Virus record (IMG/VR): IMGVR_UViG_3300018080_000234
Coordinates: 1-51,920 of that record
Reading direction: 5' to 3' (one strand)
Length of the DNA stretch: 51,920 nucleotides
Source: a virus
Shown here: one piece after another, positions 20,885-29,747 of the stretch
Position numbering within the stretch: the stretch's first letter is position 1
Layout: each line of letters begins with the position of its first letter
Notes under the pieces: model-generated
The model's input: the letters and a program-made list of their open reading frames with translations, nothing else
The model's database searches: none
What the model was told of the DNA's origin: nothing
Position numbers and translations under genes: made by a program

Positions 20885-21835
20885 ATGAGCAGTGAATTAC
20901 AGAAAATAGAATCGTTTCGCTATGCGCTTGCTATCGCTGAGACGTTCGACGAGATCGGGAAAATAGACAGCGCGACGGCTGCTATTGCAGAGTTTGCCAG
21001 ACGGGAGAAAATTAGCTTCGAGCGTCAAAACGATATTGGCAAATTTCGCATAGAGATCGAGCAAAAGAAAGGGAGGTGGCTCAACGATAATTTTCCGCAC
21101 GGGGGGGATAGGGGCAACCAGTATACCGGTGGCAAGTTGCAAGAGGAGAAACTTGCCAATATCGATCCGCACTCCTCCTCCCGTGCCCGGCTTATATCGG
21201 AGACACCGATAGAGAAAATAGTCGAGGTACAGGAAAAAATTGCCAATAGAGGGGATGTTATCACTCCGGCGAAAGTGGAGCGGGAGCTAAGAAAAGGCGC
21301 GACAGACAGGCGTGAATGGATACCACTGCCAACCGAAAAATATCATGTGATTTACGCCGATCCTCCGTGGCGATACGAGCATTCTGTTTCAATTTCAAGG
21401 GAAATAGAAAATCATTATCCGACTATGAGCATAGATGAAATTTGTGAGCTTAATATCGGATCAATAGCGCATGATGACAGTATTCTTTTTCTCTGGGCTA
21501 CCAACCCGAAACTATCGGAGGCAATGAAAGTTATTGGTTCATGGGGTTTTGTTTACCGGACGAATTTCGCATGGGTTAAGGACAGGATCGGTATGGGGTA
21601 TTATGTTAGGCAGCAACACGAGTTACTACTGATAGCCACAAAGGGAAACCCCGGAACCCCTGATCCCCCTAATCGCCCGAGTTCTGTTTTTTTATTACCA
21701 CGCGAAGTGCACAGTAAAAAGCCGGATCATGTATATGGCATGATTGAAACAATGTATCCCGGAAGAAAATATATTGAGTTATTTGCGAGAAAAAAAAGGG
21801 AGGGATGGGCTTCGTATGGCAACGAAGTTGAATGA
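20885..21835 (+). CDS. MT-A70 family adenine methyltransferase with ParB-like N-domain
   Basis: A 316-residue protein. The C-terminal MT-A70 domain has VIYADPPW (DPPW at residues 159-162), SILFLWATNPKL and a final GRKYIELFARKKREGW, so the SAM-binding and catalytic motifs are intact. It should methylate adenine N6 in DNA. The N-terminal 140 residues are helical, like ParB/DNA-binding domains often fused to these enzymes. Self-methylation to evade host restriction is the usual phage role. Confidence 0.85.
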   Translation: MSSELQKIESFRYALAIAETFDEIGKIDSATAAIAEFARREKISFERQNDIGKFRIEIEQKKGRWLNDNFPHGGDRGNQYTGGKLQEEKLANIDPHSSSRARLISETPIEKIVEVQEKIANRGDVITPAKVERELRKGATDRREWIPLPTEKYHVIYADPPWRYEHSVSISREIENHYPTMSIDEICELNIGSIAHDDSILFLWATNPKLSEAMKVIGSWGFVYRTNFAWVKDRIGMGYYVRQQHELLLIATKGNPGTPDPPNRPSSVFLLPREVHSKKPDHVYGMIETMYPGRKYIELFARKKREGWASYGNEVE

Positions 21836-24601: not shown

Positions 24602-25243
24602 ATGACAACTAAAGAAAAATCCAAAACCAACAAAACCGAGCAGGTGGTTATTGCTGCTCCGAATTTCGGGTATGCAGATTTTAGTATTGTCGGGATGGCT
24701 CCCTATGTGCAGCTAAAGTTTGCGGAAAAAACGAAGGATGAATTGAGGCGCAAGCATGAACTTGGGAGCCAGTCGCGGAAGGGGGCGAAAAAAGAGGCGC
24801 GTGATTTTGATGAAGATTATCGGCAGGCGTTTCACGTCTCAGACGAGGGCTGGCATGGGATTCCCGCTTCTGCATTTAGAAAGGCGATGATTTCAGCGTG
24901 TCGTACGGTCGGGTTTCAGATGACAAAGGCAAAACTATCTATTTTCGTCGAGCCGGACGGGTTTGACAGAAATGAAGGAACGCCTTTGATCAGAATTGAG
25001 GGTGAACCGGAAATGAAGATTGACAATGTGAAAAATCAAACCGGCGTTGTTGATTTGCGTGTACGGGCAATGTGGCGAGAATGGTCTGCGATGGTAAGGG
25101 TGAGATTTGATGCTGATTTTTTCAGCATAACAGATGTCTCCAATCTGCTCGCGCGTGCAGGGCTTCAGGTTGGCATAGGCGAAGGCAGGCCTGATTCAAA
25201 AAATAGTGCCGGTATGGACTGGGGGTTGTTTAAGATTGAGTAG
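24602..25243 (+). CDS. Conserved-looking phage protein upstream of the GGCNN array
   Basis: A 213-residue protein with an AAAGGAGATAGTC site. The N-terminal 25 residues are Lys/Thr-rich. A core from about residue 26 includes PYVQLKFAEKTKDELRRKHE and an IPASAFRKAMISACR helix. The C-terminus has a Gly-rich turn (GIGEGRPDSKNSAGMDWGLF) that resembles the glycine-rich ends of RAMP/Cas7-like RNA-binding folds. This similarity is only suggestive. Its position, immediately before the array and the late promoter, makes it a candidate late regulator. Confidence 0.45.
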   Translation: MTTKEKSKTNKTEQVVIAAPNFGYADFSIVGMAPYVQLKFAEKTKDELRRKHELGSQSRKGAKKEARDFDEDYRQAFHVSDEGWHGIPASAFRKAMISACRTVGFQMTKAKLSIFVEPDGFDRNEGTPLIRIEGEPEMKIDNVKNQTGVVDLRVRAMWREWSAMVRVRFDADFFSITDVSNLLARAGLQVGIGEGRPDSKNSAGMDWGLFKIE

Positions 25244-25259
25244 AGGCTTCATTTGACGA

Positions 25260-25324
25260 GGCGCGGCTTGGCAAGGCATGGCGAGGCGTGGCCAGGCAAG
25301 GCGCGGCGCGGCCAGGCGGGGCAA
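25260..25324 (+). repeat. Tandem array of 13 GGCNN pentamers
   Basis: Thirteen consecutive 5-base units each begin GGC, with varied last two bases (GC, TT, AA, AT, GA, GT, CA, AA, GC, GC, CA, GG, AA). Only the GGC is kept, so this is not simple slippage. It starts 16 bases after the stop of the upstream gene and ends 29 bases before the -35 of the late promoter. The spacing resembles trinucleotide sites of ring-shaped RNA-binding proteins such as TRAP. Confidence 0.9.
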
Positions 25325-25332
25325 AAACATCT

Positions 25333-25345
25333 CAATGAGACATAA
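25333..25345. promoter_or_regulatory. Copy 3 of the TTATG-N3-CATAA motif
   Basis: CAATGAGACATAA shares ATGAGACATAA with copies 1 and 2. It lies 8 bases upstream of the -35 element of the late promoter, a fitting place for an activator site. Confidence 0.45.
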
Positions 25346-25353
25346 AAAAAGAG

Positions 25354-25382
25354 TTGACGAAATTGGATTATAACTGTAAATT
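25354..25382 (+). promoter_or_regulatory. Putative late promoter
   Basis: TTGACG (25354-25359), a 17-base spacer and TAAATT (25377-25382). The predicted start near 25389 would give a leader RNA of about 209 bases ending at the terminator before the terminase gene. Confidence 0.65.
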
Positions 25383-25521
25383 ACTGTTAGATCGACAACT
25401 AAAGGAAGTTGCCGTCAAATATCTCGATCTCTACCATTCCGACTTTCTCAAGATCGAGATAAATATGAAGCGGGACCCGCAGGACGTCAAGATTATTTGC
25501 AGCGATTCTCGTACCGTGTAG
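25354..25521 (+). CDS. Possible 55-residue protein overlapping the late promoter
   Basis: The frame from TTG 25354 (or TTG 25363) to TAG 25519 encodes a protein-like sequence (LKEVAVKYLDLYHSDFLKIE, then a basic PQDVKIICSDSRTV end). No ATG or good ribosome site is present at the start, and the promoter lies within the first codons. It could be expressed from upstream transcripts or be a gene remnant reused as a leader. Confidence 0.35.
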   Translation: MTKLDYNCKLLLDRQLKEVAVKYLDLYHSDFLKIEINMKRDPQDVKIICSDSRTV

Positions 25522-25560
25522 CATAACAGTCTCAATCAACAGTCGGTGTCTGCGCAACAG

Positions 25561-25597
25561 GCCGATATTTCCCTTCCGGGGAGGTGTCGGCTTTTTT
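25561..25597 (+). terminator. Strong terminator immediately before the terminase gene
   Basis: GCCGATATTTCCC pairs with GGGAGGTGTCGGC over 13 pairs (three G-T) around a TTCCG loop, followed by six T. The terminase ATG begins eight bases later, so late expression needs read-through or antitermination. Confidence 0.9.
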
Positions 25598-26201: not shown

Positions 26202-27558
26202 TTTTCGCTCATTGCCCCTGGGAGACAGGGCTGAACTCATTGATTCGATAAGCCCAGAGGAGGCAATGTCTCTTTATTACGATTGGCGTTTTTGGGCACG
26301 TCCAGAACAGCTTGAGCCAAAAGAGCTTGGGAGGAATGGGAAGTTTATTTGGTTTTCGCTTTCCGGCAGGGGAACCGGGAAAACTCGTCAATACGCGGAA
26401 TGGGTTATTGATAAAGTACAAAATTATGGATATAGATATATCTCTCTTATAGGCGCCGCAGCGGATGAAGTACGGAATATTATGATTGAGGGGGAGAGTG
26501 GTATTTTGAACTGCTCTCCTCCCTGGTTTATTCCGATTTATGAGCCTTCGAAGAAAAGGCTATTGTGGCCAAATGGTGCTGTTGCTCAGATTTTCTATGG
26601 TAGTGAGCCCGATAAAGCGCGTGGGGCTCAGTCTGACCTTGTGTGGATGGATGAGCTTGCCAAGTGGAAATACCCGGAACAGGCCTTCGACAATATTTTG
26701 CTTGGATTGCGTTTGGGGGAGAATCCCTTATGCGGAGTATCCACAACCCCTCGGCCCACAAAATTCATAAAAGAGCTTGTAGAGCGTCCAGAGGTAATAG
26801 TGACGAGGGGCCATACAATGGACAATATCGACAATTTGGCAGAGCCATTCATTCATACCGTTATCAGAAAATACATGGGGACACGGCTCGGACGTCAGGA
26901 GCTTGATGCCGTAATCCTCGATGATAATCCAAACGCTCTATGGAAAAGAAAAGACCTGGATGACTATAGAGTCGAAAAGGCCCCGGATCTCTACAGGATT
27001 ATTACTGCTGTTGATCCTGAAGCCACAGATTCCGAAGAAAGCAGCGAAACCGGTATCGTTATAGTTGGCGAAGGCAAGGCAATGCCCGGTATGAGAAATC
27101 AAGATCTGCCTCACTTTTATGTAATAGATGATATGTCACTGAAGGGATCTCCCAACGGATGGGGCAGGCAAGTGGTAACTGCATTTAATAAATACGAATG
27201 CGACAGGATCATCGCAGAGAAAAACAACGGTGGAGATATGGTGAAATCTACTATCCACAATGTTGATGCGAAGGTCCCTTTTTCTCCTGTTTGGGCAAGC
27301 AGGGGGAAGTATGTGAGAGCTGAGCCGATATCGGCATTATATGAGCAAGGAAGAGTACATCATGTTGGTTCGTTTCCCATACTGGAGGACCAGCTTTGCG
27401 AGTGGGTTCCCGGGGAGAAATCACCAGATAGACTGGACGCCCTGGTATGGGGTGTTACATGGTTATCCGAAAAAGAATCTATTGCTCAGGCCCCCTCTGT
27501 CCGGGCACATGGCAAGAATCCAAAATTCAGGAGCAAGGTAACGAATTTACCAACTTGA
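26167..27558 (+). CDS. terL: Terminase large subunit
   Basis: A 463-residue packaging motor. The ATPase has Walker A SLSGRGTGKT (about residues 64-73) and Walker B region SDLVWMDELAKW. The C-terminal nuclease has TAVDPEATDSEESSETGIVI, with the first metal-binding Asp, and ends with DALVWGVTWL. The lineage looks like the T4/COG5323-type headful enzymes, compatible with a circularly permuted genome. Confidence 0.9.
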   Translation: MQIQNQNPTASDFRSLPLGDRAELIDSISPEEAMSLYYDWRFWARPEQLEPKELGRNGKFIWFSLSGRGTGKTRQYAEWVIDKVQNYGYRYISLIGAAADEVRNIMIEGESGILNCSPPWFIPIYEPSKKRLLWPNGAVAQIFYGSEPDKARGAQSDLVWMDELAKWKYPEQAFDNILLGLRLGENPLCGVSTTPRPTKFIKELVERPEVIVTRGHTMDNIDNLAEPFIHTVIRKYMGTRLGRQELDAVILDDNPNALWKRKDLDDYRVEKAPDLYRIITAVDPEATDSEESSETGIVIVGEGKAMPGMRNQDLPHFYVIDDMSLKGSPNGWGRQVVTAFNKYECDRIIAEKNNGGDMVKSTIHNVDAKVPFSPVWASRGKYVRAEPISALYEQGRVHHVGSFPILEDQLCEWVPGEKSPDRLDALVWGVTWLSEKESIAQAPSVRAHGKNPKFRSKVTNLPT

Positions 27559-27560
27559 TT

Positions 27561-29747
27561 ATGGCACAATCCAGCTTATTGAAAGAGGTTACGCAATACG
27601 GCGATAGATACATGAGGTTGTCCGAGGTGCTTTTCTATTCCTCGGAGCGCAGTGTTGAGCAATACAAAAAGATGCGCATGTATCCCATGTGTTGGATGGG
27701 GCTGAATTTCATCAAGCTCGGCTTGCCGGATGTTCCCTTTTCCATTGAATGCGATGAGGATGTGAATATTAAGCTCCTCACCGAGAAGATGTTCAAAAAA
27801 TTCTGGAAGCGGATGATCAGAGAGGCTCTTGAATCTCTGGACTTTGGCTTCAAGGCGTGCGAGATCCGATATCAGGCAAGCAGTTTTAAATATCAGAATG
27901 AAAACGAGGAAACAGACACATTCGATGGAATGGTACTGCGAAGGCCAAAGGGGCTGGACGGTGAAACAATCGAGATACTCATCGATGAGCCCGAAGGGAG
28001 CCTTAGGGGGTTCCGGCAGAATCATGAAATCGATGTGCTTGTAAAAGACAGAAAAGCACTTCTTTTTACGCATAATCTTGAATCCGGGAATTACTACGGC
28101 ATATCCGCACAGGAGCCAATTTACCCATTCTGGTATGATGCGAATATCAATCGCCAATTTCACATGCGATGGCTTGAGCGGAAAGGGACTGGCATATTCA
28201 AGGGCATTTATCCTGTCGGGAATTCACCTGTCGATGGGACTGATACAGACAATCAGGACGTCATGCTTGACCTCCTTGATGGTATTATGGAGGGGACGGC
28301 TGTTTCCTTACCATCAGGCCGGGATGAGAGCGGCAATCTACAATGGGATATCTCGATACTCGACAGCGAGGATAAGACAGACCCTTTTATAGAGCGTGCA
28401 AAATATCTCGATGAAACGATTTTAAGAGGGCTTGTGATACCGGAGAAAGCACTCACCCAGGGGGAGGTCGGGGCCCGTGCGAGCATTGAGGCATTTCAGG
28501 ATCTCTTTATAAATCGCAAGCAGGATATCCTTGATCAGATTGTCGATACGATTGACCGATACCTACTTCCGCATTTCGTTGAATTGAATTTCGGCCAGGA
28601 TATAGAAGTCCATGTAAGAGCCGGAAAGCTCGATGATGACAGCAAATTCACAGCGAGTGAAATAGTTAAGAAGCTCATAGAGAAGGGCTCCGAGAAGGTC
28701 GAGCAACAATGGCTTATTGATAAAACAGGCATACCACTTGAAGAGAGGAAAGAGGAAATTGATCCTGATGAGATTGTTGAATTTCCTGAAGATGAGATAC
28801 CGCTCCCCGGGGAAGAAATACCGTCCAACATTGAAGAAGAGGTGAGCGGATTTTCCGATTCCAGATGGCGGGCGTTAACGAAGAGGGAGCAGGCATTCAA
28901 GATGTCTCAGCTCGGTTCATTTCTTGACGATGAGAGTGCAAAATTCCAAAAGGACATGACCGATGAGCTTCTCAAGCAGGCAGACAGAATCAAAGGGTTC
29001 GTTGATAGGAATTTCGGTAATGATAAGCCTGCAAATATAGCGAACAAAATAGAAATAAAGAAATCACCCATCAAACGCATTTTAAGGAATTATCTTCAGA
29101 GCGTTTATGATTATTCATACAGCAATTTTAAGTCCAGCGTGGAGGGTGTGAAATTTACCGTCACCACCGATAATACAAAGGATTTCATCGGCTTTCGCTC
29201 CGATCTCACATCCAACGGCATATCCACAGACATTGAATCATCCGTCAAATACCAGACGATGAATGATCTCTCGAAGGGGATCGGCAAACTCGAGGTATTG
29301 GAAAACATCATCAATACCGTTAAGAATTACATTTCGGCGAGACTCCCCAATGTCGCAGAGACAGAGATCGGATTCACGCTCGATAAATCCAATAACGATT
29401 ATTATATCGAAAATCAGAAAAAAGTCAAGCAGGGGCTGCTGCCATCCAACAAGGCAATAGTGCGATTTCAGTATTCTGCAATTCTCGACAATAAGGTTTG
29501 CCCGTTGTGCGCTGAATTGGACGGGACCATTGTAGAGGGAGAATCGCCAATCAAGGGACAATATGCTACCCCGATTCATTACATGTGTCGCTGTGCATGG
29601 CTCCCGATAACAGAGGGAGAAGTTGAGGACCCGAGATATGCCGAAACTGATTTGTCGCTAAATAAGAAGGGCAAGCCTATGACGTTAAACGACATGAATG
29701 CCAAAGTGGGAAACAAAATTGAACTCAAGACTTTTTGTTTTCACTAA
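27561..29747 (+). CDS. Portal protein (DUF935, Mu gp29-like) fused to MuF-like minor head protein
   Basis: A 728-residue protein; ATG 27561 lies two bases after the terminase stop, and the longer ORF upstream overlaps that gene. Residues 1-about 400 match Mu gp29-type portals (WIRE-like helices, WLERKGTGIFKGIY, GEVGARASIEAFQDLF). Residues about 600-715 match Mu F-like head morphogenesis proteins with IVRFQYSAILDNKVCPLCAE and a final HYMCRCAW, probably binding zinc. These are normally separate genes, so this is a natural fusion placing the ejected minor head domain on the portal. Confidence 0.8.
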   Translation: MAQSSLLKEVTQYGDRYMRLSEVLFYSSERSVEQYKKMRMYPMCWMGLNFIKLGLPDVPFSIECDEDVNIKLLTEKMFKKFWKRMIREALESLDFGFKACEIRYQASSFKYQNENEETDTFDGMVLRRPKGLDGETIEILIDEPEGSLRGFRQNHEIDVLVKDRKALLFTHNLESGNYYGISAQEPIYPFWYDANINRQFHMRWLERKGTGIFKGIYPVGNSPVDGTDTDNQDVMLDLLDGIMEGTAVSLPSGRDESGNLQWDISILDSEDKTDPFIERAKYLDETILRGLVIPEKALTQGEVGARASIEAFQDLFINRKQDILDQIVDTIDRYLLPHFVELNFGQDIEVHVRAGKLDDDSKFTASEIVKKLIEKGSEKVEQQWLIDKTGIPLEERKEEIDPDEIVEFPEDEIPLPGEEIPSNIEEEVSGFSDSRWRALTKREQAFKMSQLGSFLDDESAKFQKDMTDELLKQADRIKGFVDRNFGNDKPANIANKIEIKKSPIKRILRNYLQSVYDYSYSNFKSSVEGVKFTVTTDNTKDFIGFRSDLTSNGISTDIESSVKYQTMNDLSKGIGKLEVLENIINTVKNYISARLPNVAETEIGFTLDKSNNDYYIENQKKVKQGLLPSNKAIVRFQYSAILDNKVCPLCAELDGTIVEGESPIKGQYATPIHYMCRCAWLPITEGEVEDPRYAETDLSLNKKGKPMTLNDMNAKVGNKIELKTFCFH

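Follow-up and report, generated by a model that had tools for sequence, protein, structure and literature searches.

Thirteen consecutive in-phase GGCNN units occupy positions 25260–25324 on the + strand of the window (the whole 51,920-nucleotide stretch of viral DNA analysed here), as read directly from the sequence; elsewhere, on either strand, GGCNN never occurs three or more times in a row. The array starts 17 bases 3′ of the stop codon of the reading frame at 24602–25243, and a small terminase gene lies ~260–280 bp downstream. The names used below are those of VIPR (Viral Interference Programmable Repeat), described in a preprint of April 2026 (bioRxiv 10.64898/2026.04.26.720920; PMC13142463), in which a phage RAMP protein (Vipr) is paired with vrRNAs, each comprising 9–16 YNNGG units and a 3′ tail (PMC13142463). 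The features of the locus are as follows.

24602–25243, + strand: vipr gene, 213-aa RAMP (Cas7-like); phrog_4652, annotated as of unknown function (family profile matches, AlphaFold (AF2) model, fold matches)
25257–25324, + strand: putative vrRNA guide region, CGA plus 13 GGCNN units (sequence and simulations; same-strand arrays near Vipr homologues in 67 of the 80 best relatives)
25325–25349, + strand: candidate vrRNA 3′ tail, consisting of AAACA, a TCTC/AAT/GAGA hairpin (25330–25340), and then CATAAAAAA (sequence)
25354–25521, + strand: possible 55-codon ORF with a TTG start, overlapping the proposed late promoter
25559–25593, + strand: intrinsic-terminator-like hairpin and T-run; strong, with 16 pairs, 7 of them GC; immediately 5′ of the gene for the small terminase subunit

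The array and its flanking elements

Markov simulations of the whole window (n = 20) gave at most 3–4 units for any 3-mer at period 5, and composition-matched shuffles of the array region (n = 20,000) gave a maximum run of 4 units, confirming that the 13-unit array, which the original prediction had delimited exactly, is real and well past chance expectation. Within the 13 units, NN takes 8 of the 16 possible values, and Tandem Repeats Finder detects a weak 5-mer repeat with 70% matches, indicating that the array did not arise by recent copying of one unit. In the published YNNGG register the array extends one unit further to the left, to CGA at 25257–25259, which brings the number of dinucleotides to 14, in the order GA GC TT AA AT GA GT CA AA GC GC CA GG AA, the first being from CGA. 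With 13–14 units, constant GGY triplets, hypervariable dinucleotides, and a position beside vipr, the array has the properties by which VIPR arrays of 9–16 YNNGG units are recognized.

The candidate 3′ tail contains a small hairpin of 4 bp (predicted MFE −1.6 kcal/mol, z −0.85, not significant) and is identical in L133, a contig from the same phage as the window (99.98% across 6.6 kb, with the same array position); none of the more diverged relatives has a tail that can be aligned for comparison, and Rfam gave no match. Homologue searches with the 55-codon ORF at 25354–25521 returned none, and it is doubtful that this ORF is part of the system. The late promoter that the original prediction placed after the array is a 9/12 consensus match (TTGACG-17-TAAATT) that coincides with the possible TTG start of this ORF, and we regard the proposed link between promoter and array as weak. 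The terminator-like hairpin at 25559–25593 lies between this promoter and the terminase genes, which suggests that array and vipr more likely share a transcription unit. The hairpin probably marks the end of this vipr/vrRNA unit, before the terminase genes, and the array, 5′ of the terminator, appears to form its 3′ end.

The neighbouring gene encodes a Cas7-like RAMP protein

The reading frame at 24602–25243 is intact, has the Gly-rich C-terminus originally described, and retains all residues that are invariant in its family. All 56 aligned family members match phrog_4652, a family of unknown function, and their alignment (A1) has a conserved C-terminal Gly-rich loop, GxGxxR, and an invariant Trp. 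An AF2 model of the protein has a pLDDT of 92.3 and a pTM of 0.85, and every one of its top 50 matches among solved structures is a Cas7-type CRISPR subunit or a complex that contains one (Csm, type VII, Cmr, and Cas7-11), with VIA-align Z scores of 9.3–11.6 across 124–154 residues. These matches show that the earlier description of a RAMP-like end was correct, and the model, the Cas7/Csm3 matches, and the GxGxxR motif together give the protein the RAMP fold, RRM core, and Gly-rich loop that characterize Vipr.

The A1 profile matches a gene of phage SUSP1 (KT454805; 28474–29061, − strand) at 7e-47 and the PDB chain 36pp_D, which is named 'SUSP1 Vipr protein', at 1.7e-42. Used alone as query, the window protein did not reach the 36pp entry, so the link to SUSP1 Vipr rests on the family profile. 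By this profile evidence, the 24602–25243 protein is homologous to an experimentally tested Vipr. PADLOC gave no match for Vipr or for its upstream neighbour.

GGCNN arrays accompany Vipr homologues across phages

We scanned IMG/VR with a pattern of eight GGCNN units that was blind to gene content, and then clustered the genes beside the arrays. The scan found at least 120 stretches in unrelated phage contigs, with freely varying NN and with arrays of up to 29 units among the matches listed. Among these matches, the largest cluster of neighbouring genes was the family of the 24602 protein (family A; 57 of 121 loci, the window counted among them and many of the loci being short), two further small families (B and C) recurred, and at least one of the three families was found in 70 of the 121 loci. 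A simple pattern scan therefore suffices to find array/Vipr loci of this kind, and the discovery of the window locus from raw sequence by GGCNN alone provides independent support for the link between array and Vipr across many phages. In some of the contigs the vipr frame runs upstream into a GGCNN array at its N-terminus (L018:391–1188, L103:11652–12293, and L124:9550–10404), so mechanical gene calls translate the guide as protein and the called starts are suspect.

We also examined the best 80 relatives from the Vipr clade of the window, taking five or more GGY units as a strict array. A strict array lies near vipr in 67 of the 80, always on the vipr strand, and none is present in the remaining 226 kb of these loci away from the gene; the other 13 have mostly interrupted arrays. 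From one array to the next in the relatives, the phase usually shifts by −1 base through a GGCAGGC junction (194 of 229 spacings). Dinucleotide usage is broad and diverse across 224 unique arrays. Absence of the array from relatives, the outcome that the original prediction named as evidence against itself, was not observed, as arrays are nearly universal beside the homologues. The breadth of this association supports selection on GGC, and together with the diverse dinucleotides and the weak tandem-repeat signal it bears out the proposal that the triplets are selected and not copied.

The same comparison bears on the possibility that the array is a DNA site, for packaging or as an origin, with recognition elements spaced by half a helical turn. 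The nearby terminase genes would fit such a role. However, the arrays are strand-locked to vipr and accompany it throughout a very diverse set of phages, and an array of the same type in SUSP1 is transcribed and bound by Vipr (PMC13142463), making a DNA site the most improbable of the readings that we considered. The half-turn spacing invoked earlier is unnecessary for reading of the array by VIPR.

Relationship to TRAP, CRISPR–Cas, and other VIPR loci

The original prediction likened the array to the binding site of TRAP, an oligomeric protein that recognizes (G/U)AGNN repeats in RNA, a triplet every five bases, with spacers that carry no information. A TRAP-like cis-regulator would be a protein that binds GGCNN RNA and controls the downstream terminase genes. 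The position of the array before the packaging genes, the triplets two bases apart, and the terminator-like hairpin downstream at 25559 are compatible with this idea, but the TrpBP family (PF02081) has no match in the record (a B. subtilis control was positive), the neighbouring gene encodes a Cas7-like RAMP unrelated to TrpBP, and the diversity of the dinucleotides is left without explanation. Moreover, the arrays of relatives are multiple, located both up- and downstream of vipr and next to accessory (vap) genes. We therefore consider cis-regulation very unlikely. What survives of the analogy is that the RNA is probably read by a protein through triplets two bases apart; the reader would be a Cas7-like Vipr and not a TRAP-like ring.

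Like the Cas7/Csm3 backbone that holds the crRNA in Class 1 CRISPR–Cas systems, Vipr has a RAMP fold (Z up to 11.6) and would hold its guide RNA at regular intervals. Unlike those systems, the locus has neither CRISPR repeats nor a cas operon, and dinucleotides between fixed triplets take the place of a contiguous spacer. The tandem repeats listed for the window include none of CRISPR type, and the ten genes scanned around the array include no cas gene.

The VIPR system of SUSP1 (type II; PDB 36pp) resembles the window locus in having a phage-encoded single-domain RAMP, related by protein profile homology, and an intergenic array of GGY/NN pentamers on the strand of the gene. We found GGT/GGC-NN arrays in both intergenic regions flanking vipr–vap in SUSP1, matching the description in the preprint (PMC13142463). 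SUSP1 has mostly GGT triplets, four vrRNAs, and vap1, whereas the window has 13/13 GGC triplets, one vrRNA, and no recognized vap; the two Vipr proteins are about 22% identical over aligned columns. The nearest annotated homologues of the window Vipr, in Cyanophage Cy-LDV1 (58% identity) and Mycobacterium phage Saal (32% identity), are annotated simply as hypothetical proteins and have GGCNN arrays alongside. Unlike the window, both of these VIPR-like loci have an accessory gene of family B, and their multi-guide arrays are phase-shifted.

The window thus has an array of a type that is conserved beside members of one protein family, and the member encoded here has a RAMP fold and is a homologue of SUSP1 Vipr. 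On these grounds, the window locus is very probably a minimal phage VIPR system with the array as its vrRNA guide. The locus is most likely another member of the published system, of a kind already described; the preprint distinguishes seven types of VIPR and also mentions vap genes as accessories, arrays that are staggered, and systems with a single guide (PMC13142463).

Proposed guide function and target search

VIPR is a newly described form of RNA-guided DNA recognition with a gapped code and has been proposed to be older than CRISPR. In the published code, the GGY triplets are unpaired and double-stranded DNA is recognized through base pairing of the dinucleotides, one base being skipped between each two (PMC13142463); by this code the dinucleotides, treated in the original prediction as freely varying filler, are the targeting information. 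The complex represses transcription, and its targets are satellites and prophages (PMC13142463). The RNP, its 1-nt skip rule, and its silencing activity are known from the SUSP1 and P. fulva systems (PMC13142463); for the window copy, we infer the vrRNA boundaries, expression, Vipr binding, silencing, target, and benefit.

On this basis, the 24602–25243 gene would encode Vipr, a single-domain RAMP, and the array after its stop codon would be transcribed as one vrRNA of ~100 nt, with 13–14 units and a short 3′ tail. Copies of Vipr would align along the vrRNA, gripping the GGC triplets and exposing each dinucleotide. The exposed dinucleotides would then pair with double-stranded DNA as GA.GC.TT.AA.AT.GA.GT.CA.AA.GC.GC.CA.GG.AA, with one skipped base between dinucleotides, so that the predicted target of the window guide is GAnGCnTTnAAnATnGAnGTnCAnAAnGCnGCnCAnGGnAA. 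Pairing would block transcription at the target, most likely in a rival phage, a prophage, or a satellite.

We searched IMG/VR and GTDB with the window guide as a 1-nt-skip pattern (N at the skips). The exact 13-unit stretch and two 10-unit stretches were absent from both, and 9-unit matches occurred at about the number expected by chance, with none extending further. One candidate target, L132 (9 units, 21 of 28 bases), was rejected because its match was at chance level and did not extend. A search for targets of 597 unique arrays across 1.6 Mb of local loci singled out no skip length, and two arrays of Mycobacterium phage Saal had no exact target in IMG/VR. The absence of a target match speaks neither for nor against function. 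Read as codons with the skip as the wobble base, the predicted target becomes [DE]A[FL][KN][IM][DE]V[HQ][KN]AA[HQ]G[KN], a plausible peptide, although this reading is only suggestive.

Accessory genes and the reduced state of the window locus

Family B lies beside vipr in 74 of the 80 best relatives; of the six without it, five are cut by a contig end and the remaining one, L133, comes from the window phage itself. The 51.9 kb of the window, a record that may be incomplete, contain no match to vap families B or C, the two families searched. The family C profile matches the neighbour of vipr in SUSP1 (3.5e-19), which we take to be vap1. The window also has one unbroken guide, compared to staggered multi-guide arrays in most relatives.

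These features raise the possibility that the locus is a decaying VIPR remnant that has lost vap and most of its guides, leaving one guide and vipr to persist without function. The missing vap, present in so many relatives, the single guide, and the target searches without a match are all in keeping with decay. Against it, the vipr frame is intact with every family-invariant residue, the 13 GGC triplets are perfect while the arrays of some relatives are interrupted, and one-guide VIPR systems have been reported as expressed (PMC13142463). We judge a functionless remnant to be unlikely.

We read the locus as a stripped-down VIPR or as one at the start of its loss, and favour the former because the triplets are perfect and the vipr gene is intact. 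That it is a naturally stripped-down VIPR, composed of a 213-aa Vipr and one unbroken guide of 13–14 dinucleotides with no accessory protein, is a tentative reading that we place somewhat short of an even chance; in known systems a vap gene beside vipr is typical, not universal (PMC13142463). If this reading is true, Vipr and a single guide would form a complete, selected silencing device against one rival. The locus adds to the VIPR systems an apparently vap-less, one-guide example with a precise target prediction.

Family B includes L127:3458–3901, Cy-LDV1 g33, and Mycobacterium phage Saal gp52, and corresponds to phrog_15946, of unknown function; its AlphaFold model, although confident (pLDDT 92), had no PDB match at E < 0.001. 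The profile of family C (for example, L014:8568–9059) is weakly similar to those regions of alkyltransferases and OmpR-type regulators that bind DNA. Elsewhere in the window, 20885–21835 contains a gene for an MT-A70 type DNA methyltransferase, with relatives in three other array-bearing contigs (L058, L069, and L094), and a single 766-aa reading frame at 27447–29747 joins a Mu-type portal to a Mu F-like head protein domain.
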